DNA of 64,000 bases from Salibacter halophilus (GTDB lineage Bacteria > Bacteroidota > Bacteroidia > Flavobacteriales_G > Salibacteraceae), in assembly GCF_008806325.1 (NCBI RefSeq), contig NZ_WACR01000003.1, forward strand, positions 62,001 through 126,000, written 5' to 3'. Under the pieces are notes generated by a model, which made no database searches, was not told the origin of the DNA, and saw nothing but the letters and a program-made list of their open reading frames with translations. A program made the translations under genes and the position numbers. Below are positions 38,789 through 64,000 of this stretch, piece after piece; position 1 is the first letter of the stretch, and every line of letters begins with the position of its first letter.

Positions 38789-39403
38789 TTATTGATTTTT
38801 TATGTCAGTCACTTTATAACCTGTGCTATTGATTGCTTTTTCAATTTCACCCACTGAAGTTTTAGAGGAATCAAACTGTACGATGGCATTTTCATTTTCA
38901 TAAGAAGCTTTCACGTCCACGATACCATCAAGTTTATTTACTTCATGGCTGACGTGTTCTTCGCACCCAGTGCAGGTCATGCCGTTTACGAAAAAGGTTG
39001 CTGTTTGCACGTTTTGCTGATCAACAACAATCACTTGCCGATCTTGCGAGGGGTAAAAAACATTTGCATAGAGCGGAAAGGCCAGCATCAACCCAGCAAA
39101 AACCGTTACTATGGCCAGGAATTTTTTGGAATGCCAGAAAGACGGCTTTTCATCATCCTCACAAGCACAATCAATTTCTTCTTTAGAACGTGGCTTTAAT
39201 TTTTGATACCAGGCAAAGCCCAAAACAAGTATAGTAATACCTATTAAGTAGGGACGTGCGGGTTCGAGCCAGGAAAAAGTGGAAGCTGCACCACTGGCGC
39301 CTGCGATCAAAGCCAACACTGGTGTTATGCAACATAGTGACGCTGCTATCGCAGCAACTATCCCTGTTCCTAAAAGTCCTTTAGATGATTTACTTTCACT
39401 CAT
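38789..39403 (-). CDS. MerT-MerP fusion mercury transporter
   Basis: 204 residues. The MerT part has helix 1 with the vicinal pair 'ASLCCITPVLALIAG' and two further helices, with a cytoplasmic 'EIDCACEDDEK' pair. The MerP-like HMA domain follows from ~130 with 'FFVNGMTCTGCEEHVSHEV' (GMTCxxC). It would take up Hg(II) and hand it to the reductase. The stop lies 3 bp from the MerA-like start, and the start overlaps the ArsR gene by 4 bp, so the cluster is one operon. Confidence 0.9.
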   Translation of the reverse strand: MSESKSSKGLLGTGIVAAIAASLCCITPVLALIAGASGAASTFSWLEPARPYLIGITILVLGFAWYQKLKPRSKEEIDCACEDDEKPSFWHSKKFLAIVTVFAGLMLAFPLYANVFYPSQDRQVIVVDQQNVQTATFFVNGMTCTGCEEHVSHEVNKLDGIVDVKASYENENAIVQFDSSKTSVGEIEKAINSTGYKVTDIKNQ

Positions 39404-40635: not shown

Positions 40636-41430
40636 TTATTTAGAAAGTTTTAAAATGCGAATAGCGCCCCGCATCACAAAGGCGAACACGATTCCACCAA
40701 TTAACAGGTCCGGCCATTTGCTGTTTAGAAAATAAACCATTACACCGGCCAGGATCACTCCACCATTCACAATAATATCGTTGGAAGTAAATATGGCACT
40801 GGCCTGCATGTGAGCTTCATCGCTCTTAGCTTTATTGATCAGCCAAAGCGAAACCAGATTGCCTATGAGTGCCAGTACTGATATGATGATCATCCACTGA
40901 AACAGGGGCGTTCCGCTTTCGCTGAAAAACCTGCGCAATACTTCTGAAAAGCCTAATAGTGCCAGTCCCATCTGAAAATAGCCACTGATTTTAGCTACTT
41001 TTTTCTTACGAGACATGGCAGCACCTACAGCAAATAGGCTCAGACCGTAAACGATGGAATCTGCCAGCATATCCAGAGAATCGGCTATTAAGCCCATAGA
41101 ACTGGAAATCCATCCGGTAGTCATTTCTATTACAAATAAGCTGAAATTGATAGCCAGCACCCACCAAAGTATTTTTCGCTGTTGGGAGTCGTCAGTAGCC
41201 AACGGCAACTCAGCTTCATCTTCCGTACTTTCCAAGTGGTCACTGAGCTTAAGTTCACTAATGGCCTGATGGATCTTATCCACTTCGTTTGTGTGATATA
41301 CTTCCAGTTTGCGATTGGGGATATCAAATGAAAGCTGCTTTACTTCATTATAAGGTTCCAGCTTCATACGGATCATCTGTTCTTCTGAGGGACAGTCCAT
41401 TTTTGAAATTATGAAAGTGGATTTTTTCAT
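40636..41430 (-). CDS. Cation diffusion facilitator with N-terminal HMA-like domain
   Basis: 264 residues. The N-terminal ~75 residues form an HMA-like fold ('STFIISKMDCPSEEQMIRMKL') with a single Cys instead of CxxC. Six helices follow, including the CDF signature 'MGLIADSLDMLADSIVYGLSL' with its paired Asp residues, and 'SNDIIVNGG' as the second metal site. There is no C-terminal cytoplasmic domain. It exports Zn, Co or similar ions into the periplasm, where the RND pump can take over. Confidence 0.88.
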   Translation of the reverse strand: MKKSTFIISKMDCPSEEQMIRMKLEPYNEVKQLSFDIPNRKLEVYHTNEVDKIHQAISELKLSDHLESTEDEAELPLATDDSQQRKILWWVLAINFSLFVIEMTTGWISSSMGLIADSLDMLADSIVYGLSLFAVGAAMSRKKKVAKISGYFQMGLALLGFSEVLRRFFSESGTPLFQWMIIISVLALIGNLVSLWLINKAKSDEAHMQASAIFTSNDIIVNGGVILAGVMVYFLNSKWPDLLIGGIVFAFVMRGAIRILKLSK

Positions 41431-41431
41431 T

Positions 41432-42703
41432 TTAATGACTATGCGATGTCTGACTTTTCTTCATCTCTGAGATAAGGTAGTAGGCATTGTTCCAGGCTAC
41501 TTTAGTTCCTTTGGGAAGTGGTTCCAGCAGGTTTATTTCCACCCAACCTTCATCAATAACACCAGTTCGTATTTCCACGGGTTTAAATGCCCACTCCGTC
41601 TCACCATCCTCATTGTGCTGTTCAGCTATGAAGATATAGGGTTTACCTTCTTCCTCGATAATGGCACTTTCCGGCAGGGCGTTTACAGCTTTATTCTCCG
41701 TGTGGATTTTTCCGTTGATGTACATCCCTGGTATCAGGAATTCCTTCTTTTGCTCAATTTCTGCGTGGACGTGAACCGCTTTGGGGTTTTGTTCAAATTG
41801 TTTCCCTACCGAATAAATTTCGGCTGTAAGGCGTGAACCGGGCACGGACTCCACAGTAAAAGAAACTTTCTGCCCTTCTTTCACTTTGTATACATCTTTT
41901 TCGAATACCATTAAATCTGCGTGGATGTGCTGGGTATTGACAATTTTGAACATTCCCGTTTGCGGCTGAATGTACTGACCTAACTGGATCAACACTTTTT
42001 CAATGTAGCCATCTATGGGGCTTACCACCGGCACCTGCTCATATACATCACCATTCCTGATTTTCTCTACCTTCAGGTTCAACTGGCGCAGTTGGGCTTC
42101 GTAGCCCTTTACTTCTCCTTTCATGGATTGATAGTCAGACTTGGTCTCCTGAAAGGTTTTGCCGGAACCTACTTCTTCTTCGTACAGCTTCTTTTGCCGG
42201 TTGTATTCCTGCTCAAGGTATTCACTGCGGTTGTAGGCCGTGATGTACTTGGTTTGAATCTCGGTTAGATCAGGGTGAGACAGGTATGCCAGCACCTGGC
42301 CTTTACTGACCTTATCCCCTTCTATCACTTTGATGGAAGTGATATTGCCTCCAACTATCGCTGTAACGGTGGCCTCGTGTTGTGGTGGCACTTCCAACTG
42401 GCCATTGGCTTCTACCACGCCCGATATGGGGCGAGTGGGCATAGTGTCCACTTTCATCCCCAGGCTCTTAAATTTTAAGTTGGACAAATGAACTTCGCCC
42501 ATGCCTTCTTCCCCGTGGCCTTCGTGCCCGCCTTCTTCATCGCCATGCCCCTCATGGCCGTCTTCTTCACCGTGGCCTTCGTGCGATTCGTGCTGCTCAC
42601 CTTCCTCGTGATTATGCCCATCGCCATCGGTTTCGTTGCCACAGGCCGAAACAAAACCTGCTATAAATAGCAGTGCAAATAATTTTATGATCTGATTTTT
42701 CAT
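41432..42703 (-). CDS. Heavy-metal RND efflux adaptor (CzcB type), His-rich
   Basis: 423 residues. Lipoprotein signal ('LLFIAGFVSAC'), then a His/Glu/Gly-rich tract of ~40 residues (repeats of GHEGHGDEEG-like units) able to bind divalent ions. The adaptor core follows ('VPPQHEATVTAIVGGNITSIKVIEGD', 'VVSPIDGYIEKVLIQLGQYIQ') with coiled-coil hairpin and barrel, ending 'SQTSHSH'. The His tract points to Zn/Co/Ni rather than copper. Directly downstream of the pump gene (27-bp gap) and upstream of the CDF gene (1 bp). Confidence 0.9.
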   Translation of the reverse strand: MKNQIIKLFALLFIAGFVSACGNETDGDGHNHEEGEQHESHEGHGEEDGHEGHGDEEGGHEGHGEEGMGEVHLSNLKFKSLGMKVDTMPTRPISGVVEANGQLEVPPQHEATVTAIVGGNITSIKVIEGDKVSKGQVLAYLSHPDLTEIQTKYITAYNRSEYLEQEYNRQKKLYEEEVGSGKTFQETKSDYQSMKGEVKGYEAQLRQLNLKVEKIRNGDVYEQVPVVSPIDGYIEKVLIQLGQYIQPQTGMFKIVNTQHIHADLMVFEKDVYKVKEGQKVSFTVESVPGSRLTAEIYSVGKQFEQNPKAVHVHAEIEQKKEFLIPGMYINGKIHTENKAVNALPESAIIEEEGKPYIFIAEQHNEDGETEWAFKPVEIRTGVIDEGWVEINLLEPLPKGTKVAWNNAYYLISEMKKSQTSHSH

Positions 42704-42730
42704 GTCGTTTATTTTTATCCGTTACCGGTT

Positions 42731-45700
42731 TTAGTTTGTTGTTTGTAAATAGTATTCGAGTTCATAGCGGCTGTCCAGGTAATTGCCCAGGGCATTCCAT
42801 GAATCCACTTCTATGCGGATAGCGTCCCTTATGTTTTGCAAAAAACTTACATAGTCTATTGCGCCTTCTCGGTAAGCCGTTATCGAACCTTGTCTTTGCT
42901 CGCGTGCCAGCGGCAATGCCTGGTCTCGATAGTAAATCCATGAGTTACGCCATTTCAGGTATTCTTCCCGCATGGATTGGTACTCGGCATTGAGTTGTAG
43001 CTGATTTTGCCTGAGATTTTCCGTGGCAATTTCGCGCTGGATTTTAGCCTCTTGCGTACGGCCCAGCTCGGGCCCAAAAAACAAGGGGATTTGTATGCCT
43101 ATTTGGTAGGTGTAAAACCCGGTTTGCCCCCCAACTTCTTGCCAGCCATACTGTCCTTGTAACTTGGGCAAAAACTCCGATCTTCTTTCCTTTATTCGAG
43201 CATCGGCCACTTTTATTTGCTGTTGATACACATTAAGCAAAGGGTGAGTACTTAGGGAATCCAAGTCATAATTAAGGATTCCGGTCAATTGCTCACTGGG
43301 CACATCCGGTACTGTATAAAGGGTATCGCTGACCAGCCATAAGTTGAGCCGCTGCAAAGCGCCCAGGTAATCGCGATAGGCCTGTTCCTTTTGGATGCGC
43401 ACTTCATTGGCCTGGTTTTTAGTGGCCAAATAGGCCAGTTTAGAAGTTTCTTCTACTTCCAATCTCACATCTGCCGCTCGTTCTATATCGGTAAAGAGCG
43501 AATCCAAACGGTTGTACACCTGGTAGGTGTTTTTAGCGGTGTAAACCTGGCCCCAGGCCAACTTCACTTCTCGTTTAAGCTCTGTTAATGACAGGTCGAG
43601 AGCGCTTTCGGCAAGGGCTACCCGTTCCTTTTGCAAGCGCAGTCGTGGAGCAATTCCAAAAACATCAATATTTTGTTGTTGAACCCCTATCCGCGTATAA
43701 ACTCCATCAGTATTGCTGCTTGCTTCTTCCGCTCCCGTGAAAATTTGGGTGTTCCCAAAGTCCCAGGCTGTTTTCTTCAGCGCTGCTTCGCTTTCTATTT
43801 GAAGCCTTTTGGCCTTGATCTGAGGGAAATACTCAACAGCCCGATTTTGGGCATCTTTAAGGGAAATGCTTTGCAAGGTATCCGGGTTTATTCCTTGCGC
43901 CTTTGCAGATTGGGAAAACCCGAGAAAACTACCTAAACCAATAAGTAGAACGATGGTGTTCAGAGCTGTTTTATGCCCCTGGTTTCCGATTTTCTTTTCC
44001 CTGCGTTTCTCAACGAAGGTATAGAGTACAGGCAGTACAACCAGCGTAAGAAGTGTAGCCGACAGCATACCGCCAATTACTACGGTGGCCAATGGCCGCT
44101 GCACTTCCGCTCCGGCAGATGCCGAGAAAGCCATAGGCAGGAAACCGAATATATCCGTGGTTGCCGTAAGCATGATGGGGCGAATCCTTTCTTTGGTACC
44201 GGTCAAAATTCGATCCTTTAAGCTGGTCACCCCTTCTTCTTTGAGGGAATTGAAGCGGTTGATCAGAACCAAACCATTCAATACAGCTACACCAAACAGC
44301 ACGATAAATCCAACACCGGCTGAAATACTAAATGGCATATCTCTCATCCACAAGGCAAAAACGCCCCCTATGGCTGCCAGGGGAATGGCCATGTAGATCA
44401 TAATGGATTGCGAAAATGACTTTAGTGCAAAATAGAGCAGCACGAATATCAAAAAGAGTGCAATGGGCACTACAATAGTGAGCCGTTTTTTGGCACTCTG
44501 TAAATTCTCAAATTCGCCACCATACGTAATATAATAGCCAGATGGCAGATTCAGCTGTTCATCTAATTTGACTTGTATATCATTCACTACCGACTCCACA
44601 TCCCGGCCTCGCACATTTACACCTACGTAAGTCCTACGGTAGGTATTGTCGCGGCTAATCTGCATCGGGCCTGGTTGGTAGCTTATGTCAGCTATTTCTT
44701 TGATGGGAATTTGTGTTCCGTTCTCAAGGTCGATATACAGGGTGCGCAGGTCGTCTATACCCTGGCGGTGGGCCTCATCAAAACGGATGACCAGATCAAA
44801 GCGTTTTTCGCCTTCAAAAATCACCCCTGCCTTTCCACCTGCAAAAGCAGAACTGATATACTCGTTCACCTTTTCAATGTCCAAGCCGTATTGCGCCATT
44901 TTCTTACGGTTATAGCGCACGGTCATTTGAGGCAAACCCGAAGTCCGTTCGGGATTTACATCACCAGCACCCGGCACGGTCTCAATAATATCGGCCATTT
45001 CCTGAACTTTGGTAGCCAATACATCCAGGTCTTCACCATAGAGCTTGACAGCAATGTCCTCACGCACACCTTCCAGTAGTTCATTGAATCGAAGTTCCAC
45101 AGGTTGTGTGAACACAAGGTTGACACCAGTCAACCGCTCTTCAAGCAGTTCCTTGATTTCGTCAATAAGCCCTTCCTTCGTTTCTGCCGTAGTCCACTTA
45201 TCCCGGTCTTTTTCCAGAATGAGGTACATATCGGCAATATCCATTGGCATAGGGTCGGTAGGAATGTCGGCCACACCAATGCGGGCTGTTACCGTTTTGA
45301 TTTCAGGAAAATTCTCCAGTAAAAGGTTCTCAATTTTATAGGAAACATCTGTTGCCTCACTCAGCGAACTTCCCGGCCTTATCAATGCCTGCATGGCGAT
45401 ATCACCTTCATCCAGTTGGGGTACAAATTCTCCTCCCATTCGGGAAAAGGTATAGCCCGCTATGCCGAGCAGAACAACAGCAACGATAATTACCATTGTT
45501 TTAAACCGGAGTGCACTTTTGAGTAAGGGCAGATAGGCCCAATGAATGCCACCAATGACTTTATCACTGATTTTTTCCAGCCAGCGTTCAAATCGCCCAA
45601 ACCAGTTCTTTCTGTTTTGGATGGGTTTCATGAAAAGGGCAGACATCATGGGAACGTAAGTGAGGCACAAGACTATAGCACCTATCATGGCAAATCCAAA

Positions 45701-47143
45701 GGTATAGGCCATGGGCTGGAACATTTTACCTTCCACACCTGTGAGGAAAAGAATAGGGGCAAATACAATCAGGATGATAATCTGTCCGAAAAAGGCTGAA
45801 CCCATCATTGTGCTGCCGGACTCATAAGCCACCTCATCCATTACACTCTGGTTGAACTTGATTTTCCCTGACCGAATACGTTTCTGAATTTCGTAAACTG
45901 TTCCTTCAATAATGATCACTGCCCCGTCAATGATGATCCCGAAGTCAATAGCGCCCAGGCTCATCAGGTTGGCCCAAACGTTAAACTGCTTCATCAGAAT
46001 GAAGGCAAAGAGCAGAGAAAGCGGAATGGTAGTGGCCGTAATGAGACCCCCGCGCAAACTTCCCAGGAGGATTACCAGTGCAAATATTACGATCAGTGCG
46101 CCTTCAATCAGGTTGTTCTTTACCGTATCAGTGGTTCTCCCTATAAGTGCGCTACGGTCGATAAAAGCATCAATCGTGAGCCCTTCGGGAAGCGATTTTT
46201 CTACTTCCTCCATGCGCTCTTTCACGTTTTGGATAACGGCATTAGGGTTGGATCCCCTCAGCATCATTATTATGCCTCCTACGGCTTCTTTACCATCACG
46301 GGTGAAAGCCCCGTAGCGCACCTGGTGACCAAAATGAACTTTCTCGGCCACGTCATCAATGGTGATGGGAATGCCATTTTCGTTTCGGATTACAATACTC
46401 CGTATGTCGTCCAGAGAGCGCACCAGTCCTTCCCCGCGAATGAAATTGGACATCCGGTTTTTTTCGATGTAAGCACCGCCAGTATTTACGTTATTTCGGG
46501 CAAGGGCACCGTAAACCTCTGAAATGCTCACATCCATGGCGTTGAGCTTTTCAGGATTAATAGCCACTTCGTATTGTTTGATGTAACCACCAAATGAGTT
46601 GACCTCCACCACACCATTAAGCAAGGTGAGTTGTCTTTTTACGATCCAATCCTGAATGGTTCGCAGTTCCATTGGACTGTAGACAGTGTCATAACCCGGT
46701 TTCGGTTGGATGGTATATTCATAGATCTGGCCCAAGCCTGTAGAAATAGGACCCATAGTTGGGTCGCCAAACTTTTCGGGGATGGTCTCCTGTAATTCAT
46801 TCAGTTTTTCCTGTACCAGTTGGCGGGGCAGATAAGTACCCATATCGTCTTCAAAAACGATGGTGACGACCGACAGGCCAAACCTTGAAACGGAACGGAT
46901 TTCTTCCACTCCGGGAAGATTTCCCATGGCCAGTTCCACCGGATAAGTGACAAACTGCTCGATATCTTCGGTAGCCAGGTTTTCGGATACGGTCATTACC
47001 TGTACCTGGTTGTTGGTGATATCCGGCACCGAACCTAGGTTAACCGTGGACATGGAGTAGATACCCACTCCTATGAGGGCCAACGTGAGCAGGCCCACAA
47101 TAAATTTATTCCTTATGGAAAATGAAATGATTTTGTCTATCAT
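42731..47143 (-). CDS. CzcA-type RND pump fused to a TolC-type channel (1470 aa)
   Basis: Residues 1 to ~1045 are a complete HME-RND pump: helix 1, 'VAINPEKLNAMDVSISEVYGAL', the TM4 proton-relay signature 'LGAIDFGIIIDGAVII', and the C-terminal helix block ending 'YTFVEKRREKK'. Residues ~1085-1470 are a TolC-like outer-membrane channel with two coiled OEP repeats. Between them, at ~1059-1084, is a typical signal peptide ending in S-A-K-A-Q. Such fusions occur in Bacteroidota. The retained signal suggests cleavage after translation into two proteins. Start ATG at 47143. Confidence 0.92.
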   Translation of the reverse strand: MIDKIISFSIRNKFIVGLLTLALIGVGIYSMSTVNLGSVPDITNNQVQVMTVSENLATEDIEQFVTYPVELAMGNLPGVEEIRSVSRFGLSVVTIVFEDDMGTYLPRQLVQEKLNELQETIPEKFGDPTMGPISTGLGQIYEYTIQPKPGYDTVYSPMELRTIQDWIVKRQLTLLNGVVEVNSFGGYIKQYEVAINPEKLNAMDVSISEVYGALARNNVNTGGAYIEKNRMSNFIRGEGLVRSLDDIRSIVIRNENGIPITIDDVAEKVHFGHQVRYGAFTRDGKEAVGGIIMMLRGSNPNAVIQNVKERMEEVEKSLPEGLTIDAFIDRSALIGRTTDTVKNNLIEGALIVIFALVILLGSLRGGLITATTIPLSLLFAFILMKQFNVWANLMSLGAIDFGIIIDGAVIIIEGTVYEIQKRIRSGKIKFNQSVMDEVAYESGSTMMGSAFFGQIIILIVFAPILFLTGVEGKMFQPMAYTFGFAMIGAIVLCLTYVPMMSALFMKPIQNRKNWFGRFERWLEKISDKVIGGIHWAYLPLLKSALRFKTMVIIVAVVLLGIAGYTFSRMGGEFVPQLDEGDIAMQALIRPGSSLSEATDVSYKIENLLLENFPEIKTVTARIGVADIPTDPMPMDIADMYLILEKDRDKWTTAETKEGLIDEIKELLEERLTGVNLVFTQPVELRFNELLEGVREDIAVKLYGEDLDVLATKVQEMADIIETVPGAGDVNPERTSGLPQMTVRYNRKKMAQYGLDIEKVNEYISSAFAGGKAGVIFEGEKRFDLVIRFDEAHRQGIDDLRTLYIDLENGTQIPIKEIADISYQPGPMQISRDNTYRRTYVGVNVRGRDVESVVNDIQVKLDEQLNLPSGYYITYGGEFENLQSAKKRLTIVVPIALFLIFVLLYFALKSFSQSIMIYMAIPLAAIGGVFALWMRDMPFSISAGVGFIVLFGVAVLNGLVLINRFNSLKEEGVTSLKDRILTGTKERIRPIMLTATTDIFGFLPMAFSASAGAEVQRPLATVVIGGMLSATLLTLVVLPVLYTFVEKRREKKIGNQGHKTALNTIVLLIGLGSFLGFSQSAKAQGINPDTLQSISLKDAQNRAVEYFPQIKAKRLQIESEAALKKTAWDFGNTQIFTGAEEASSNTDGVYTRIGVQQQNIDVFGIAPRLRLQKERVALAESALDLSLTELKREVKLAWGQVYTAKNTYQVYNRLDSLFTDIERAADVRLEVEETSKLAYLATKNQANEVRIQKEQAYRDYLGALQRLNLWLVSDTLYTVPDVPSEQLTGILNYDLDSLSTHPLLNVYQQQIKVADARIKERRSEFLPKLQGQYGWQEVGGQTGFYTYQIGIQIPLFFGPELGRTQEAKIQREIATENLRQNQLQLNAEYQSMREEYLKWRNSWIYYRDQALPLAREQRQGSITAYREGAIDYVSFLQNIRDAIRIEVDSWNALGNYLDSRYELEYYLQTTN

Positions 47144-47838: not shown

Positions 47839-49290
47839 TCAGAATGAGGTTTCTTCAACTTTTAGAGACGCTTTTATTTCTTCGCGAATATCCTTTCTCA
47901 AGTGATACCAAAATCCTTTCTTGACCGGGTTGCCTAAGGTGGCTAAGCGTTTGTGACAATAGGAAGCCTCTGTATCGGACAATTCCAACCTTCTTTCAAT
48001 GAGGTATTCCCGGTATTTGTAAACGGCTGAGATCAACTTATGATCCTTGCTCTTGGCAAAGCTGATAAAGCTTTCAAAAATAAGGAGCCGCTCTAATTCT
48101 TCTGTTAACTCCATCAATTCTAAGCCTTCGGCTTCATGAGGGGCCTTTACTTTGCGGACTATCCCCTCTTCATCCTCTACTATAATTTCTTTGGAAGCAG
48201 CTGTGCCTTTCCGTTTTTTAACTCCTTCCAATGTCCATTCGCGGTCTACGTAGCTTAATCCATGTTCAAGCCATAAGCCAGCATTATCCAGAACAAGTCC
48301 GAATTCCTTTCCTGGGGCAGGGCGCATACACCGTCCTACTTGCTGAAGGTAGAGAACTAACGATTTTGTTGGCCGGGCAAGCTGCACGGCTTCACAATCA
48401 GGAACATCAAACCCTTCAGACACGATATCGACATTGGAAAGGATGAGGATTTCCCCTTTTTTGAATTTCTCGAGAATAGACTTTCGTTCTTCTTTTGGTG
48501 TATTAGCATCCACATGGGCAGCGGCAATACCCTCGCCATTGTAACGCTGTACAATGGATTTGCTATGTTCGACATCAACAGCAAAGACGATAGTCTTTTT
48601 TCCGTTTGCTTTGTTCTTGTAAGTCTTCACCAAGTCAGCCATTAAGTGATTGGCTAACATTACGTTTCTCAGCATCTGAAGGTCGTAATCCCTCATCTTC
48701 TTTTTCACTTTACTGAGATCAGGAATAGCTCCCACGAGATGTTTGATTCTGGCTAAATATCCTTTTTCAAAAAAGTAACTGAGTTTGCCCAGAGGAATAA
48801 GAATTTGGTACTGATCATCGAAGCCTTCACCGTTTAATCGGACAGGATTAGCAGTCACTCCAAGAAATCGTGCATCAGGGTAAATTTCCCAGAGCTTCTT
48901 GTAGGTGGCGGCTTTTGAGTGGTGGCATTCGTCAATAATGACAATATCCGCAGGAGGAAATTTGCGTCTCGAAAGGGTTTGAATACTGGCAACCTGTATG
49001 TTCTTATCAGGGTCAGGCTTTGTTCCGGCCAGAATTACCCCAACTTCCACTTCAAACTTATCCTGGAGCCTTTCAACAATCTGCTCTACCAATTCTTTCC
49101 TATGGACTACAAGAAGTACTTTCTTCTTTTTTAGATGGGCTTTCCTGACTATTTCAGAAAACACATGAGTCTTTCCAGTGCCGGTAGGCATCTGGAATAG
49201 AACGTTCATGAGGTTCTTGCGCTTCGGGTCCCAAGCCTCAAAAATTTGGGTAATGCCGTTTTTCTGATATGGTCTGAGCTGGTCAGGCAT
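47839..49290 (-). CDS. DEAH-type superfamily 2 helicase (RadD-like)
   Basis: 483 residues. Q-motif-like 'LRPYQKNGI', Walker A MPTGTGKT (34-41), motif II DECH (120-123), motif III region 'GVTANP', and motif VI 'QQVGRCMRP' in the second RecA domain. The C-terminal ~110 residues are helical, as in RadD/YejH-type helicases. Expected to unwind or translocate on DNA using ATP. Its start codon touches the stop of the Argonaute gene with no gap, so the two are coupled and very probably work together. Confidence 0.9.
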   Translation of the reverse strand: MPDQLRPYQKNGITQIFEAWDPKRKNLMNVLFQMPTGTGKTHVFSEIVRKAHLKKKKVLLVVHRKELVEQIVERLQDKFEVEVGVILAGTKPDPDKNIQVASIQTLSRRKFPPADIVIIDECHHSKAATYKKLWEIYPDARFLGVTANPVRLNGEGFDDQYQILIPLGKLSYFFEKGYLARIKHLVGAIPDLSKVKKKMRDYDLQMLRNVMLANHLMADLVKTYKNKANGKKTIVFAVDVEHSKSIVQRYNGEGIAAAHVDANTPKEERKSILEKFKKGEILILSNVDIVSEGFDVPDCEAVQLARPTKSLVLYLQQVGRCMRPAPGKEFGLVLDNAGLWLEHGLSYVDREWTLEGVKKRKGTAASKEIIVEDEEGIVRKVKAPHEAEGLELMELTEELERLLIFESFISFAKSKDHKLISAVYKYREYLIERRLELSDTEASYCHKRLATLGNPVKKGFWYHLRKDIREEIKASLKVEETSF

Positions 49291-51348
49291 TTACAAAAAC
49301 CACAAATTATTCTCCCCGAACTCAGGCACCTTATCACTTTTGAAATAAGGAAATACCTCGGCTACCATTTCGGGGTACTTGATGGTGACCGGTAGGTTCT
49401 GTTGCTTCACAGACTTCCAGTACATACGGCTAAATTGATAAACCTGGTCGATCAATTCCTTTATCGTTTCATCATCATTGAGCAAATTGCTCTCCGAAGC
49501 GGAGAAGGTAAGTTTGATGGGGAAAGGCCAATCGCTTATCCGGGAATTGATCTGGTAGCGGGTATTGTTAAAGAGCAGGTACTGATCTCTTCCGATAGGA
49601 AGGATCGTACCGCTCAAGGGCAACATGCTTTCATGTTGCATATTGAAGGCCACCAGGTCTTTTTCCTCCGTCTTATTGATGGTTATCACGTAAACAGGGA
49701 TATTTACATTCAGCTTCTCAAGCATTTCCACTATTGGCTCCAGCTCCCTTTCGCTCATCTTCTTGTAGAAATGAATGATCAGCCGCTTGGTGTTTTCATG
49801 CTCCACCATGTATTTGAGGACGGCTTCCCGAATGGAGCCAGCTAACATCTTGGTCTGGTTGGCTGAAAAGCATTTGAAGCCCTGAAAATCGCCTTCGTTG
49901 TTGAAGCAGAAGGCACTCCCAACATAGCGGCATTTATCAGTGTATGAGTAGAAAGCTCCGACACCTACAACCAGTTCGTCTTTCGGCTCACGCTTCAAGC
50001 GCCAGGGAATGCCATCGAGCTTTGCGAGAAGGGCAGAGGAAATATTGGTCAGGTGAAAGTTATATTTCGGTTTGCCAATATTGCCTTTATAAATTACCTG
50101 TGAAGTAATTCCTGGCTCGTTCTTGAGCAGCATTTCCTTCAAGCGGGCATAGACCAATCGTTTCTCAGGGTCTGGGTTGTCCTTTGAAATGGGGCTTACA
50201 TAAATGGCCAAATACCTTGTGTTAGGCACGGCCTCAAAATCTTTCAAGAACTCTCGGGTCTGATCTAAAACGGTATCGATGCTATCAAAGGCCACGCTCT
50301 TATTCTCAAGCATTTCAAAGTTCTGCCTTAGCACTTCATCCATAGCTGGAAAGGTGTAGCCATTGTAGGTGTAGCCTTCAGTGAGATATTGGTATAGACT
50401 CTTGACCTTGCCCAACCTTTCGGATTTGGGATAGATGAAGAAGAACTTACAATGGCCCCCGTGAGGTGGGCTGTATGGGCCTTTGTCAATGAATGCTTTG
50501 GGGTCAATTCCAACTTCTTCGTTACCAAATTCGAGGTTGTTAGAATCATATTTGGTGCGAAGGATGCGTTTGGGGGGCATGTCAATAAATCCTTCCTGGA
50601 ATGGAATGATGGACTTGAAGCCGCTTGTGTTTAGGTATTTATTGTAAAAGCCTCTGATCTTTTGAAAGTAGTCTTTGTACTTGGTGCCGAACTTGGGCTT
50701 ATCCCAAGGAATTTCCAGAAAGGTTTTTAACTCATTGCTGAGCTTGGGGAAAATCTGATCGTGATTTTGCTTTATCTCTGGAGACAGGTATTCGTACTTG
50801 TAAACTGCTTTGTTGTACACCACCTTGTTGAGCTTTTCGGTGGGGAAGTTCTTTAGCTCCTTGAGGCTCTTATTGAGGACTTTGGTTGTTCCATCATAAG
50901 AAACCAGCAATTCAGGGCTGTCGGAAACCCTTTTGAATTGAACGCGAAGGGAAAAAATCTGAAAAGTGTCGTATTTGGAAGTACTCAACTTGCTATCCCT
51001 AAACCAGACCTCCACATCTCCAACGAAATCATACTGGGCCACATCTGCAATAGTTAGGAAATGCTTGCGGATCTGATGTTTGTAGTAATGAGCCGAAAAC
51101 TTGGCCGATGAAGCAAGTTGTACCGTTGCTTTATAGTCACAATCTTTAGTTGTTTCAAAGTTGGTGTAGAGGTAGGAGATATCCTTTAGCTCATCCTCGT
51201 GCTCTTCCCAAAGTATCTTGGGGTATTCGGCTTTATGAAGAGGGGCGTAGCTCTCTATTTTCTCCTTATAGAAGCCGCACTCTATTTCATCAACGGGGTT
51301 TTCAAAGTTTAATATGTTGAGCTTTAGTTTCTGGTCTGGCATAGGCAA
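49291..51348 (-). CDS. Long prokaryotic Argonaute, PIWI active site apparently lost
   Basis: 685 residues. The MID domain (~370-445) shows 'IYVSPISKDNPD' and 'TSQVIYKGNI' (Gln/Lys of the guide 5'-end pocket), followed by 'ALLAKLDGIPWRL', the hallmark of the MID-PIWI border. PIWI (~455-685) ends 'YQFSRMYWKSVK', then 'LPVTIKYPEMVAEVFPYF'. Active long Argonautes carry a DEDD/H tetrad; here the first Asp region reads GVGAF (462-466), the second reads IIHFYKK (524-530) where HRDG-like is expected, and the last reads YPEMV (658-662). Slicing is therefore unlikely. N and PAZ-like regions fill residues 1-~290. Lies 6 bp after hsdR. Confidence 0.88.
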   Translation of the reverse strand: MPMPDQKLKLNILNFENPVDEIECGFYKEKIESYAPLHKAEYPKILWEEHEDELKDISYLYTNFETTKDCDYKATVQLASSAKFSAHYYKHQIRKHFLTIADVAQYDFVGDVEVWFRDSKLSTSKYDTFQIFSLRVQFKRVSDSPELLVSYDGTTKVLNKSLKELKNFPTEKLNKVVYNKAVYKYEYLSPEIKQNHDQIFPKLSNELKTFLEIPWDKPKFGTKYKDYFQKIRGFYNKYLNTSGFKSIIPFQEGFIDMPPKRILRTKYDSNNLEFGNEEVGIDPKAFIDKGPYSPPHGGHCKFFFIYPKSERLGKVKSLYQYLTEGYTYNGYTFPAMDEVLRQNFEMLENKSVAFDSIDTVLDQTREFLKDFEAVPNTRYLAIYVSPISKDNPDPEKRLVYARLKEMLLKNEPGITSQVIYKGNIGKPKYNFHLTNISSALLAKLDGIPWRLKREPKDELVVGVGAFYSYTDKCRYVGSAFCFNNEGDFQGFKCFSANQTKMLAGSIREAVLKYMVEHENTKRLIIHFYKKMSERELEPIVEMLEKLNVNIPVYVITINKTEEKDLVAFNMQHESMLPLSGTILPIGRDQYLLFNNTRYQINSRISDWPFPIKLTFSASESNLLNDDETIKELIDQVYQFSRMYWKSVKQQNLPVTIKYPEMVAEVFPYFKSDKVPEFGENNLWFL

Positions 51349-56266: not shown

Positions 56267-57421
56267 TTAACCATCAGGAAAATTCAGTTCATAATCTGAC
56301 ATGTCATCGGATATGCGGATCCATACAGCTCCATTGGGTGACCTGATAAATTTTTTGTCAGTACTTATCCAGCCAAACGTCTCATAGCGATCTTCAAGAA
56401 GTATGGCAACCTTCATTTCCATTTCCTGTAACTCATATAGCGAAAGGCATTCCCTTTGCCCTAAATATGTGTTGCAGACAGCATGGCCCCAGCCTACGTT
56501 TACGGGTATGTGAGTAAGTGAGTGATGGAGAAGCGGTTTCAAGTGAAAGAGATTTACAACTGTAGAACGAGTGGAGTCTATTAGCTGCATCGAAGCATTA
56601 GAAAGTGCATCTGCTTCCTCAAATGAAATTGTATCGTGAAGCTCTGAATATCTAAGAATTTTTTGACATAAAGGGCAGCAGGTTAAGCCTCTTCGCATTG
56701 TGCCGTTTTTCTCAAATATGGAAGTATCTATAAGATTTTCATCTGATAAAATTGCAATAAGATGTTCTGCTTGACTAGTAGTATAAGGACTGTTGTATGT
56801 ATTTATGATGAAATAGGCTAGAAGACACTTACATAAGTAATTGGTCTCCTTGTCAGCATACTCTGCAGCAAAAATTCCCTGTGGAGGTCCTTCGTCCTTC
56901 TTTTTATCACTTCCCGATGTAGATAGTCTCAGAAGATAGTGACCTACATCTTGGACATGCTTACCTCGCTTTTGAACTTTACTTCCATCATGTTCTAAAT
57001 GCCTAATAGACCATGATGAAAGTGGAGGAAATGATTTAAAACTTTCCCATGTCCTGTAAAGGACATAGGCATTATCGCCAACTACAACCTTACTTTCTGG
57101 GTCCGTAAATTGAGCCTTAGGTGTATGTTTGGACTCAAAGTACTGTTCGGGGTATAGGCGAATAACATACCCGTCTTTGTAAAGCGACAAGCTTTCATGT
57201 GAAAGTTGTTCGTACGGGATTACAACCTGGTTGTTACGATTGACATGATTCTGATAACCTCCTTTCTTTCCACCACGAGGAGTAGCAAAACCAGCCTTAG
57301 AAATTTTATTTTTGTCAACCTTTTTAAAAAATCCCCAAACATTGGGATGATTTTTATGGCTTCCTTTATGCCCTTTTAATAGTCGACAGCTTTCTTCTTC
57401 ACAAATTTCTTTGGTTAGCAA
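56267..57421 (-). CDS. BstXI-type HNH restriction endonuclease
   Basis: 384 residues. N-terminal zinc-finger-like C7, C12, H18, H22; then 'KISKAGFATPRGGKKGGYQN' and 'HVNRNNQVVIPYEQL', which I recall from BstXI-like enzymes. In the C-terminal half, 'TCCPLC' (247-252) supplies a metal pair, and 'FHLKPL' (His293), 'PVNVGWGHAVCN' (Asn308, His313, Cys316) form the H-N-H core. The gene starts 5 bp after hsdS. BstXI uses a methylase plus a separate S subunit, the same three-gene order as here. Family naming is from recall; the HNH core is seen directly. Confidence 0.75.
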   Translation of the reverse strand: MLTKEICEEESCRLLKGHKGSHKNHPNVWGFFKKVDKNKISKAGFATPRGGKKGGYQNHVNRNNQVVIPYEQLSHESLSLYKDGYVIRLYPEQYFESKHTPKAQFTDPESKVVVGDNAYVLYRTWESFKSFPPLSSWSIRHLEHDGSKVQKRGKHVQDVGHYLLRLSTSGSDKKKDEGPPQGIFAAEYADKETNYLCKCLLAYFIINTYNSPYTTSQAEHLIAILSDENLIDTSIFEKNGTMRRGLTCCPLCQKILRYSELHDTISFEEADALSNASMQLIDSTRSTVVNLFHLKPLLHHSLTHIPVNVGWGHAVCNTYLGQRECLSLYELQEMEMKVAILLEDRYETFGWISTDKKFIRSPNGAVWIRISDDMSDYELNFPDG

Positions 57422-60154: not shown

Positions 60155-62392
60155 TCATTGTACTTTTTGGTAATGGCCCGTCTTCGGGCACTCCACATAA
60201 TCAGGCTGCAGTTTCTTTAGAAAGTAATCTACTGACCTTGCACTGAGGTTTAATTGCTTGCCTAACTCCACAGCCTCAGCCCGTTTGAAAGTGGGAGGGA
60301 GCATTTCAAAAAGCTTCCGTTTGTTATCACCTCCACGGAAAGGCTCTGCGTCTTCCTGCTTGGGCAAGTTGTGAAACATCAATAGACTGTGCTTCAGGTA
60401 GATGTTTGAAAGCTGCAACGCAGCTTGAAAATCATCGTCCAGGCATTCCTGCTTTACGGTCAGCTCCCCGTTTTCAAATTTTCGTAGAGCGGTAAAGATC
60501 ATGGCGATGCGGTAGCAAATGAGGCCAAGCCTTTTTACTACGCTGGTTGCTTCATCACTGATGAAGCGGTCCACTTCTTTCAGCCAAAGACCGAAGGTCT
60601 TGTTGAGCTGATCCCATTGCTCGCGAGTTAGCTGCACTTCGGTGTCAGAGCCTTGCAGGAATTGGTGCATATCATGCACCCGTTTAGCAAGCCTTTCAAA
60701 CAGTTCTGTCAGGTTTACCTGGCTACCAAATGGCGAAACATCACGCCAAATCTGCTGCGTTTTGAAGGCATAGAAGATAAAGCGGCTAAAAAGGCCATCT
60801 TCAGCAGAATTGATAAGGTTAGGCACTTGGCTGGGCGTACCGGATAGCGCAACTGAAAGTTGTGGGGCTTTTACTTCCACATATTCATTATTGGTTTTGC
60901 GGCTACATGAGATTTTCTCATGGTGGAAAGCTTTGCGCAGCATATCAGAATAAGAACCCCATTCCTGTTTAAAGATATTGCCCATGGTGTCAGCCTCCGT
61001 TTCGCAAATGATGCCAGACCCGCCATTTTCTTCCAGGTGCCAAAGAATTTTGGCGTTGCTGGTATTGGCGGGAATGTAGAGCACTTCATATTGAGGCTTC
61101 TCCGGTGGTTCGGTAGCGGGTTCGCCTTTTTTTCGGCTTTTCTGCTCCATTTTGTGATCTTCCAGTTCCAGCTCATAATCTTTCATGCGCTGTTCGCTGG
61201 CCGTTCTCATGTGCTCATGAATGCGGTCGCCCAGGTTCTTTGCGGACAGCAAAGAGCCTTTGCCGCTTGCGGCTGGGGCGATAATGAAAGAGAAAAGGTT
61301 CGGATGAACTGTTCTCTGAGCATAGATGCCTGTTACATTCGGTAAGCATCCACTGAGGATGCAGAGGGCACCGGTCAGAAAGACATCCCGCTCGCGGGAG
61401 TCGGAAAAGCCAGAGGCACCTTCCTGAAGGATTTCAGGCAAAGCCTGATAGACTTCATCGGGAATGGTAGGGGACTGCAGTAGGTAATCTTCTTCCTCTT
61501 GTTGCCGGGCATGGTTTACACCATTTGAAGCGTTTGCAAACTTTGCAAACTCGTGGGAATGGTGGTTGTAGGCACTTTTTACAGCCGCTTCAATTTCCTT
61601 AAAGCTTAGGTCATAGCGGTTTCCGATCAGTTCCCGTGCTTCCATTTCTTCAATACCGGCACGGTTGCAGTTGGAGGCCAACAGGTAAACGAAGTTGTTC
61701 CTGTTGCCTTCTGCATAGCTCATCTTTTGCTCGGTGAACTGGATGCAATTCTCAAAGGAAGTACTGACCTCTTCGGGTTGTTCATGATGGTTTACCGGAG
61801 TGGGCTGAGGGGGAATCGTAGGTTCTTCAACCTCAGCTCCCGGAAGTTCAACATGAAACTTTTTGTGCTTCAGATTGCGGTAGCATTCAGGATCAGAAGA
61901 AAAGAAGCAAAGGCGCGGGATGTCTTTCCCGGAACGATCCAGCTTTAGCTGGAGAGCATTTTCATAATAGGTGGCTACCTGCTCAAAGGCTTCTGCATGG
62001 TGTTCCTGTTCGCTGTCCACTTCAATGAGAATTTTCAAGCCCTGTCCACTTGGGCTGCGAAAGCAGCAGAAAGTGTAAGGCTCGGAAGAAGCTTTGTCAA
62101 AAGCTTCTGAGAGTTGCTGGTCTGAAAGCTTATCGAGGTCGAGAATGATGAACTGGCTATAGCGAAGCAGCTTGTCTGCTGCGCGGCCTCCTTCAAAGGT
62201 TCCCGATGGAGTGAATGCAGGCAGCTTCTTTTTGAGAAGATCTGCGTTTTCCCGGTCGCCACTGTAAAGGAGCTTGCGGATTTCGTGAATCTGCTCTTCA
62301 TAGACACCTCCCTTGATGTCTTTAGTGATTAGTACAAGTGATTTATCCTCCACCTTTTGGGTGAAGTGCTTGAATATTGTTGATGTTGCCAT
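60155..62392 (-). CDS. BT4734/DUF3987 replication-type protein of mobile islands
   Basis: 745 residues. N-terminal BT4734-like domain (~20-190, 'YSQFIILDLDKL', 'CFRSPSGQGLKILIEVDSEQ'), related to VirE/primase-polymerase N-termini. A linker follows, then the DUF3987 ATPase-like part with P-loop 'IIAPAASGKGSLLSAKNLG' and a helicase-loader-like C-terminal half. These proteins belong to Bacteroidota integrative elements and are probably involved in replicating the excised circle. Follows two excisionase-like genes in the same direction. Holds the island's only GTCAGANCC copy. Confidence 0.85.
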   Translation of the reverse strand: MATSTIFKHFTQKVEDKSLVLITKDIKGGVYEEQIHEIRKLLYSGDRENADLLKKKLPAFTPSGTFEGGRAADKLLRYSQFIILDLDKLSDQQLSEAFDKASSEPYTFCCFRSPSGQGLKILIEVDSEQEHHAEAFEQVATYYENALQLKLDRSGKDIPRLCFFSSDPECYRNLKHKKFHVELPGAEVEEPTIPPQPTPVNHHEQPEEVSTSFENCIQFTEQKMSYAEGNRNNFVYLLASNCNRAGIEEMEARELIGNRYDLSFKEIEAAVKSAYNHHSHEFAKFANASNGVNHARQQEEEDYLLQSPTIPDEVYQALPEILQEGASGFSDSRERDVFLTGALCILSGCLPNVTGIYAQRTVHPNLFSFIIAPAASGKGSLLSAKNLGDRIHEHMRTASEQRMKDYELELEDHKMEQKSRKKGEPATEPPEKPQYEVLYIPANTSNAKILWHLEENGGSGIICETEADTMGNIFKQEWGSYSDMLRKAFHHEKISCSRKTNNEYVEVKAPQLSVALSGTPSQVPNLINSAEDGLFSRFIFYAFKTQQIWRDVSPFGSQVNLTELFERLAKRVHDMHQFLQGSDTEVQLTREQWDQLNKTFGLWLKEVDRFISDEATSVVKRLGLICYRIAMIFTALRKFENGELTVKQECLDDDFQAALQLSNIYLKHSLLMFHNLPKQEDAEPFRGGDNKRKLFEMLPPTFKRAEAVELGKQLNLSARSVDYFLKKLQPDYVECPKTGHYQKVQ

Positions 62393-62395
62393 GTC

Positions 62396-62695
62396 TCAAG
62401 ATTTTGAAGTTGCGTTAATACCTGACCTGGAAGGTTGTCGGTGTTCTTCCAGCATTTTCACGATGTCGCTCATGCGGTAATAGATCTTGTTGCCGATCTG
62501 TGAGTAAGCAATTACACCTTCATTCCGCCAGGACTGAGCGGTGCGCTTACTGATGTACATGAGTTGCAGAAATTCCTGATTGTCGAGAAAGACATCATCA
62601 AGGTTGGTCTGCTTGGTGTGAAGGGCCGCCTCAATGTTTTTGAGGCGGTCCATGATTGCTTTGAAAGCTCTGTCGCTTAATTCGATCTTCTCCAT
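62396..62695 (-). CDS. HTH excisionase-like protein
   Basis: 99 residues with a helical N-terminus, then 'LDNQEFLQLMYISKRTAQSW', 'RNEGVIAYSQIGNKIYYRMS', 'DIVKMLEEH', the DNA-binding arrangement of AlpA/Xis-type (helix_turn_helix_17) proteins, ending basic. Such factors control excision or replication in islands of this kind. The stop is 3 bp before the DUF3987 gene. Confidence 0.85.
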   Translation of the reverse strand: MEKIELSDRAFKAIMDRLKNIEAALHTKQTNLDDVFLDNQEFLQLMYISKRTAQSWRNEGVIAYSQIGNKIYYRMSDIVKMLEEHRQPSRSGINATSKS

Positions 62696-62697
62696 GG

Positions 62698-63003
62698 CTA
62701 GCCCCTCCGTCCTTTGGTTACCAAATAGTCAGCGGCTCGCTTCTCGATGTCATCCGCTGAGGTCTGGCGGTTGCGCTGCAACCATTCATCCAGTTCCTTG
62801 CGATTGAAATAGAGGCGTTTACCTTGCGGACAGAAATGCGGGATAGCCTTGGTGCTCGTAAGCTTATAAAGGTGGCTCTGACTGAGCCCCAGGTATTGGC
62901 TTGCTTCGTTGAATGAGAGAACTTCTTTTTGAAGGATTCCCTGCTCTACAATCAATTGCTCGATCTTGTCGAGCCTTTCGATGATACTATCTTGAGTGTT
63001 CAT
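62698..63003 (-). CDS. Second HTH excisionase-like protein
   Basis: 101 residues. Core 'SFNEASQYLGLSQSHLYKLT' and 'STKAIPHFCPQGKRLYFNRK', 'ELDEWLQRNR', the same excisionase fold as the neighbour but a distinct copy. It begins right after a ~170-nt structured leader and is followed 2 bp later by the other HTH gene, so the pair probably acts jointly at the attachment sites. Confidence 0.87.
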   Translation of the reverse strand: MNTQDSIIERLDKIEQLIVEQGILQKEVLSFNEASQYLGLSQSHLYKLTSTKAIPHFCPQGKRLYFNRKELDEWLQRNRQTSADDIEKRAADYLVTKGRRG

Positions 63004-63026
63004 TTTACTCTTGATTTTAAAAGTTT

Positions 63027-63148
63027 ACAAAAGGGTTTCTTTTGTGCCTTTCACTCGCCCGAAACAAGGCACTGGTTTCAGGCGAATGATCAAGAGCAAA
63101 TTGAGCGCATAGTGAGCCCGTAAACAGTGAGATATTTACATCTCACTG
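63027..63148 (-). promoter_or_regulatory. Structured leader upstream of the excisionase operon
   Basis: Four stems can be drawn: ACAAAAG/CTTTTGT (63027-63045), TCGCCCGAAAC/GTTTCAGGCGA (63055-63085, 11 bp with one mismatch or U-G pair), CAGTGAGAT/ATCTCACTG (63125-63148), and GTGCCTT (63044-63050) with AAGGCAC (63066-63072). The last pair joins the loop of the second stem to sequence nearer the start codon, a potential pseudoknot. It occupies most of the gap to the gene at 63003. Confidence 0.6.
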
Positions 63149-63174
63149 AGTTAGCTCCCTGAACTCACTGTTTT

Positions 63175-64000
63175 TTATTGCAGTTCTTTCAGAATGTCGT
63201 CTATGATGGGTTGATTTTTGGGGTTGGCAATCTTGTTGGAGTAGAGATTTTGCTTGTTGATCCGCGTGTTTTTCTTGGAGTAAAAGATTGCTGCCTTATC
63301 GATGGTGGAAGGTTTCAGATTGGTAAAGTAAGGCTCCAGGCGGTCAATGATGTATCTGAATTGGGTGGTTTCGCAGTCCAGGTGAATTTCCGGTGCTGTA
63401 GAGGTCAGTGATTTTGCAGTTAGTACATGCAAAAGATCTTCCGGAGTGGACTGGTCATCCTTCAGCAGTTCAACCTTCAGGTTGAGAAGCTTAATAACAT
63501 TCTCAAGCTTCTTGGGGTCTCCGGTGAAACCAAAGCTAAAATCCTGGTTAGCTGTCAGGATAGGTTTTGGCTTTTTGGGTTTGTCCTCATGGTTTAGCAC
63601 TTCCTGCAGTTGTTCACGAAGCTGGTCCAACTTTACAGTTGAATTTATGTAGTCAGACTCAGGGACTGGCTCACTGAGGTATTCGGCAAAGATTTCTGAA
63701 TCTGTGGCCGGTATTGGATCAACGTATTGCGGGTAGAGTTTGTCGGTTTCAAGGAGTAAGCGAATGAGCGACCATTTCAAAACGTCCAGCACGTATGCGG
63801 AAAGTTGATCGTTCTGTAAGTCAGATTTTATTTCTGCTAAGTCCCGGAGCTTGTCAATCACTCCGGCACGGAGTGAGTTGATCAAATAATGGCGGTCGGT
63901 ATCATCCAGGTCGCGAGTAATGGCATTAAACAGATTGGCGGTGGTCCGGGTGGCTTCGTTCTTTATTAAGTAGTGATAAAAGCGCGAGGTGATGTCGAAT
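63175..64000 (-). CDS. Hypothetical island protein, C-terminal 274 residues (cut by window edge)
   Basis: The frame stays open past the TTG at 63885 to the window edge (residues upstream include 'FDITSRFYHYLIKNE' and 'TTANLFNAITRDLDDTDRHY'), so the start lies outside. It is soluble and helical, with a Lys/Pro hinge ('KPKKPKPIL') and a C-terminal segment 'TQFRYIIDRLEPYFTNLKPS' common to RteC-like/DUF6617-like proteins of Bacteroidota mobile elements. Function unknown; family naming is tentative. A hairpin-rich gap separates it from the excisionase genes. Confidence 0.7.
   Translation of the reverse strand, partial: FDITSRFYHYLIKNEATRTTANLFNAITRDLDDTDRHYLINSLRAGVIDKLRDLAEIKSDLQNDQLSAYVLDVLKWSLIRLLLETDKLYPQYVDPIPATDSEIFAEYLSEPVPESDYINSTVKLDQLREQLQEVLNHEDKPKKPKPILTANQDFSFGFTGDPKKLENVIKLLNLKVELLKDDQSTPEDLLHVLTAKSLTSTAPEIHLDCETTQFRYIIDRLEPYFTNLKPSTIDKAAIFYSKKNTRINKQNLYSNKIANPKNQPIIDDILKELQ

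Follow-up and report, generated by a model that had tools for sequence, protein, structure and literature searches.

To our knowledge, the exit decision of mobile islands of the Bacteroidota is known mainly from CTnDOT of Bacteroides. In RteC-type control a regulator binds sites upstream of a promoter. Directly behind its gene lies a leader, then small HTH genes, and element-specific repeats occupy the space between the regulator gene and the HTH genes. RteC activates genes of the CTnDOT excision operon (PMC10865816). Leaders that act at the RNA level are described in three further papers. Longer transcripts of the T4 genes e, soc, 49 and I-TevI are locked and a late promoter lies at the structure (PMC3014915); the tetQ leader of Bacteroides, which works by translational attenuation, provides translation-level control in a Bacteroidota element (PMC5418344); and stem-loops in the 5′ UTR of ICEKp1 int form a structured leader that limits a recombination gene of an integrative element, with a potential terminator after a tRNA promoter (PMC13023037).

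The locus described here lies in the window, by which we mean the whole stretch of 64,000 nucleotides of Salibacter halophilus DNA that was analysed, within an integrase-linked island. Its leader fills the 171 bp that separate a DUF6617 gene from the first member of an HTH gene pair, and all of these genes are on the minus strand. The DUF6617 gene (365 aa; Pfam PF20322, E 1.4e-36) is directly upstream of the leader; its 3′ part occupies 63175-64000 and it runs on to L002:2273. Downstream, HTH1 (62698-63003, 101 aa, ATG at 63001-63003) is an excisionase-family HTH protein that matches HTH_17 and scores above the cut-off of the excisionase domain model TIGR01764. A second HTH_17 protein, HTH2 (62396-62695, 99 aa), and a BT4734_N/DUF3987 primase-like protein (60155-62392, 745 aa) complete an apparent operon with gaps of 2-3 bp. 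Upstream of DUF6617 are a tyrosine integrase, a third HTH gene and the 3′ end of mnmE, so that the region resembles the int end of an integrated island with the leader placed before an excisionase-type operon. In a search for the island's other end, direct repeats of at least 14 bases of the mnmE-proximal stretch were not found within 81 kb.

As in the RteC region, two small HTH genes follow the upstream gene, but that gene does not belong to the RteC family (PF09357). Homology between DUF6617 and RteC, which the gene order had led us to expect, was rejected: hhalign, given alignments of 15 of the 59 DUF6617-linked proteins and 14 of the 28 RteC matches, returned a probability of 0.1, and no RteC match appeared at E≤1. 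The AlphaFold2 model of DUF6617 is confident (pLDDT 86.8), and Foldseek gave no match to it in the PDB at E≤0.001, so that no known DNA-binding fold was detected. Our literature search found no paper on DUF6617 and none that joins sequestration of a ribosome binding site with the excisionase of conjugative elements. We propose, with a probability of roughly 0.6, that the HTH1-HTH2-primase operon of this DUF6617-type integrative element is under two-layer control, by a DNA array and by an RNA lock on the start codon. Such control is analogous to that by RteC, not homologous to it.

The array begins directly after the DUF6617 stop codon and consists of four 7-bp half-sites at offsets 0, +9, +22 and +37, the last one inverted. 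Comparison of offsets across 15 loci assigns them in the window to AGTGAGT (63163-63169, minus strand), AGGGAGC, which is degenerate in this element (63154-63160, minus), AGTGAGA (63141-63147, minus) and AGTGAGA in inverted orientation (63126-63132, plus). These offsets are fixed in the window, in ten loci of family B and in four of family D, and since they were first read from these same 15 loci the fixed spacing is not an independent prediction. From element to element the half-site reads AGTGAGA, AGTAAGA, ATTGAGA, GTTGAGG or ATTAAGA, and all copies shift together. This coordinated variation amounts to 364 matches against 295.6 ± 7.1 on permutation, a value reached in 0 of 20,000 permutations; with one locus per type the figures are 258 and 207.7, again 0 of 20,000. 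When the other leaders were scanned, L028 proved to have three of the four sites at the same offsets, and L032 and L090 gave similar scores with a different pattern. Because direct and inverted copies co-vary at fixed spacing, the array looks like protein-binding DNA with a drifting specificity, and it adds to known excision control a DNA code that has changed in step across all of its copies. Judging from gene order, its binder would most simply be the DUF6617 protein, and the leader offers a direct handle on the role of this uncharacterised protein. The original prediction had pointed to a third copy of CTCACTG, present at 63164-63170 and followed by six T on the plus strand (63171-63176), as a strand that competes for a nearby stem; with the spacing fixed in 15 loci, it is better read as the first half-site than as such a strand or as a terminator.

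Integrase arm sites are a less likely identity for the array, because the TTGTTGCCC-like repeats at the attachment end differ from it. Those repeats, together with a TATATTTG-like box, lie past the end of the window (L002:3700-3965) between mnmE and the first HTH gene, and they recur ahead of the integrase at nine further loci; they are the likely arm sites. At RteC loci (L097, L099, L104, L106, L110, L116, L122 and others) element-specific inverted repeats stand at two places, behind the stop codon of rteC and immediately before the HTH gene; they co-vary between elements and are possibly RteC operators.

The structure in the leader is beyond chance, as had been claimed. The RNA of the minus, coding strand folds with -69.0 kcal/mol (z -7.91) and that of the plus strand with -50.3 kcal/mol (z -3.75), and in neither case was any of 200 shuffles as strong. 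A repeat search recovered every pairing that had been reported. Hairpin P3 (63027-63045, minus strand) is formed by ACAAAAG/CTTTTGT, 63027-63033 with 63039-63045. The stem at 63055-63085 is contained in a longer hairpin of 15 pairs, P2 (63051-63089, minus strand; TCATTCGCCTGAAAC/GTTTCGGGCGAGTGA), of which 13 are Watson-Crick and two G.T. A further stem, CAGTGAGAT/ATCTCACTG, joins 63125-63133 with 63140-63148. The 7-bp loop complement (GTGCCTT/AAGGCAC, 63044-63050 with 63066-63072) is a potential pseudoknot, whose minus-strand partners are GTGCCTT in the P2 loop (63066-63072) and AAGGCAC (63044-63050). Full-length P2 leaves a single nucleotide before the second of these strands, and the pseudoknot therefore requires the base of P2 to open. 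Absent from the original prediction was an outer stem, here called the lock, in which 63089-63104 (5′ arm) pairs with 63000-63015 (3′ arm) on the minus strand; it has one G.T and two A.C oppositions, runs into the HTH1 start codon, abutting and partly covering it, and encloses P2 and P3. A pseudoknot of equal size arose in 17 of 5,000 shuffles of the window leader and in 26 of 5,000 shuffles of its closest relative, L049; in a scan over 75 loci L034 and L053 also scored, as did the reverse strand of L049.

For comparison, relatives of HTH1 were collected from genome contigs (26 loci) and from further genomes. Where a genome was matched repeatedly (as with L004 and L008) it was counted once, and L063, with no usable ATG, was left out; 79 leaders were folded, including that of the window. 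The upstream ORF fits the DUF6617 profile in 59 of 78 cases. At 75% identity the leaders fall into 46 clusters, 31 of them DUF6617-linked. Lack of stem conservation in homologous islands had been named in advance as the observation that would speak against a structured leader, and the stems and the pseudoknot turned out to be conserved. In L049, which comes from the same order, the pseudoknot strands GTGCCTTGTT and GAAAGGCAC are unchanged, P2 becomes ACCGAGA/TCTCGGT and P3 changes from ACAAAAG/CTTTTGT to ACACAAT/ATTGTGT, each altered in both arms and still paired. The four-site array is absent from L049. Its outer stem, which occupies other alignment columns than the lock of the window, is predicted to bury the ATG (opening z 3.60). 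Conservation of stems and pseudoknot supports the earlier view of a regulatory leader before excisionase-type genes.

Occlusion of the start codon was assessed as the energetic cost of opening HTH1 from position -8 to +6, relative to shuffled upstream sequence, with either 80 or 110 nt upstream; the longer stretch reaches the remote 5′ arms found in the window and L049. With 80 nt the 31 non-redundant DUF6617-linked leaders had a median z of 1.78 (p≤0.05 in 15) and the 15 representatives without DUF6617 a median of 0.95 (p≤0.05 in four). Other starts in the same loci served as controls, with median z values of -0.38 for DUF6617 (n=12), -0.28 for Int (n=11), -0.15 for HTH2 (n=20, five with p≤0.05) and -1.14 for the primase (n=11); the 31 leaders differ from these 54 control starts with p 1.3e-9 (Mann-Whitney). 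With 110 nt the median opening energy of the 31 leaders was 9.58 kcal/mol and the median z 2.05, with p≤0.05 in 16, so that about half of the leaders are individually non-significant; for the HTH1 start of the window z was 3.66. A suitable next ORF was present at 13 of the 24 RteC loci read, and these RteC-linked HTH starts had a median z of 0.25, with one of the 13 significant (110 nt; p 7.8e-5 against the DUF6617-linked leaders). Since the RteC-linked starts are unlocked, the lock is a trait of DUF6617 elements and not general to excisionase operons. The lock arms differ wholly between families, being TTACGAT/ATCGTAA in family B, GTCCAT/ATGGAC in family C and TTTGCTCTTGAT/ATCAAGAGTAAA in the window, and the lock, as modelled, thus appears to be conserved in the relatives though its letters have been completely replaced. 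What this adds to the RteC paradigm is an excision control that apparently acts on RNA, absent from the 13 RteC-linked starts, in an element family found across several Bacteroidota families.

The alternative that survives best, though we regard it as unlikely, is that the region functions throughout as a double-stranded DNA operator for DUF6617, HTH1/HTH2 or Int, and that the RNA fold is incidental. The array does behave like protein sites, RteC-linked loci carry co-varying inverted repeats at the same place (judged by eye), and the centre of the P2 palindrome in family C is self-complementary in all 22 distinct blocks, as in the site of a dimer. If the arms functioned as duplex DNA, however, neither type of mismatch should be favoured, because G.T between the arms on one strand is A.C on the other. 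In family C (33 loci with 22 distinct blocks, picked by eye for a common palindrome) the P1 and P2 arms contain 249 Watson-Crick, 28 G.T and one A.C cells; for the family B inner stem (nine distinct of ten) the counts are 97, 16 and one. The 44 G.T against two A.C mismatches of the two families, in cells that are not independent events, have no reason in duplex DNA and, as far as sequence goes, point to RNA in these families. Counted over all stems of the 31 representatives, G.T and A.C stand at 40 and 30, a difference that is not significant. The coding strand has the more negative fold z in 26 of 31 leaders and the opposite strand in five (p 7e-4), which also argues against a DNA operator, as does the loop closed by the lock, which ranges from about 25 nt in family C to about 75 nt in the window. 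The family C stems co-vary, with a score of 0.521 against 0.038-0.113 for slid partners and nine pairs altered on both sides (23 rows). Covariation leaves the family C lock unsupported, because none of its six pairs changes on both sides and three never vary.

A riboswitch, in which a metabolite would stabilise the pseudoknotted fold and so switch HTH1 translation, would account for the retention of the pseudoknot strands and their neighbours between the window and L049 despite the changes in the stems around them, and for a start codon in or beside the outer stem. We consider this quite improbable. No Rfam family matched at the gathering score, no sequence core common to the leader families was found, and the pseudoknot motif occurred in one of 59 relatives of G038, which is G038 itself, and nowhere in a pattern scan of viral contigs. 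An origin from which the excised element would replicate or transfer, with the array as iterons and the hairpins as initiation structures, is very improbable. It would suit four direct and inverted half-sites slightly upstream of a BT4734/DUF3987 primase gene, but the G.T bias of the hairpins is strand-specific and the HTH1 start codon is where the stems are anchored; given that bias, such an origin finds no support in the hairpins, and it is a slim possibility for the array. Transcription attenuation or termination between DUF6617 and HTH1, suggested originally as a control of excision and by the strong hairpin after the DUF6617 stop, is the least credible reading, because the terminator scan of the minus strand found no site in the leader and a sole match inside HTH1, the transcribed strand has no GC stem followed by a U run, and the plus-strand T run has no evident plus-strand gene downstream and, the genes being on the minus strand, does not lie behind a stem in the transcript.

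In the two-layer control that we favour, the four half-sites would bind a sequence-specific regulator that controls transcription towards HTH1. In the RNA of the coding strand, the outer stem would enclose P3 and the pseudoknotted P2 and cover the sequence as far as the HTH1 start codon; this lock would repress HTH1 translation and so hold excision low until it is opened or avoided. One economical scheme for this family would be that read-through transcription from int-DUF6617 yields RNAs with both arms, which are locked, and that a promoter whose -7-like box falls within the 5′ arm or further downstream would produce an mRNA lacking that arm, as in T4 gene e. The consensus of the -7 promoter box is TAnnTTTG. 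A tentative promoter of the leader is marked by TCAATTTG (63097-63104, minus strand), which has one mismatch to the consensus, lies within the 5′ arm of the lock and aligns with TTACTTTG in L049. On the coding strand, boxes with at most one mismatch number 49 against 35.8 expected (2 of 300 shuffles), and the other strand has no excess. For the window, L049 and the representatives of family B, the nearest box either overlaps the 5′ arm or follows it; most leaders of family C have a box upstream of P1. With two arrangements, of which only the first recalls T4 gene e, no single trigger can be claimed, and the T4 scheme is inapplicable to family C, where the likely promoter is upstream of the lock.

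The likeness to T4 gene e is that the start codon or its flank lies in an RNA helix, which here is a predicted one; unlike T4, this is a bacterial mobile element with a pseudoknotted leader and a promoter box predicted from sequence. In contrast to tetQ, no leader peptide is common to the window (MRSICS) and L049 (none), nor is one conserved outside family C, in which the short ORF retains ATG or GTG as its start. ICEKp1 differs in that its leader acts on int (PMC13023037), whereas here the start of the excisionase gene is concerned. The principles are ordinary; their combination and the element family are new.

A bolder generalisation, which we offer as a long shot, is that DUF6617 elements have their own class of excision-control RNA, in which a start-codon lock persists despite repeated replacement of its sequence. 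In family C a hairpin with an invariably self-complementary loop would compete with this lock, so that loop-loop pairing between two transcripts could release the start codon. If so, excisionase synthesis would sense the transcript or the copy number of the element. The palindrome in question, such as GACTTTTGGCCAGAAGTC, lies at about -47 to -25 from the HTH1 ATG in the family C leaders (L023-L094). The hexamer at its centre is self-complementary in every one of the 22 distinct blocks (66 of 66 cells), and the palindrome opens with ATG (21) or GTG (1) in a MTFGQKSI-like frame that in some loci continues in-frame into HTH1.

Several minor observations concern the spread of these elements and their surroundings. 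The leaders of L007-L009 are near-identical and that of L010 is close, in records named Aquimarina, Crocinitomicaceae, Algibacter and Psychroserpens, and L009 and G004 share an HTH1 with 100% identity; these likenesses suggest recent transfer. Elsewhere in the window a Piwi-domain protein adjoins a ResIII-type helicase (47839-51348), with restriction genes nearby in the same stretch. A protein matching the BstXI restriction enzyme is encoded at 56267-57421, in surroundings that we take to resemble a type I restriction locus. A MerT-type transporter (38789-39403) is also present, as is a 1470-aa ORF that joins an AcrB-type efflux pump to an outer-membrane efflux domain (40636-47143).
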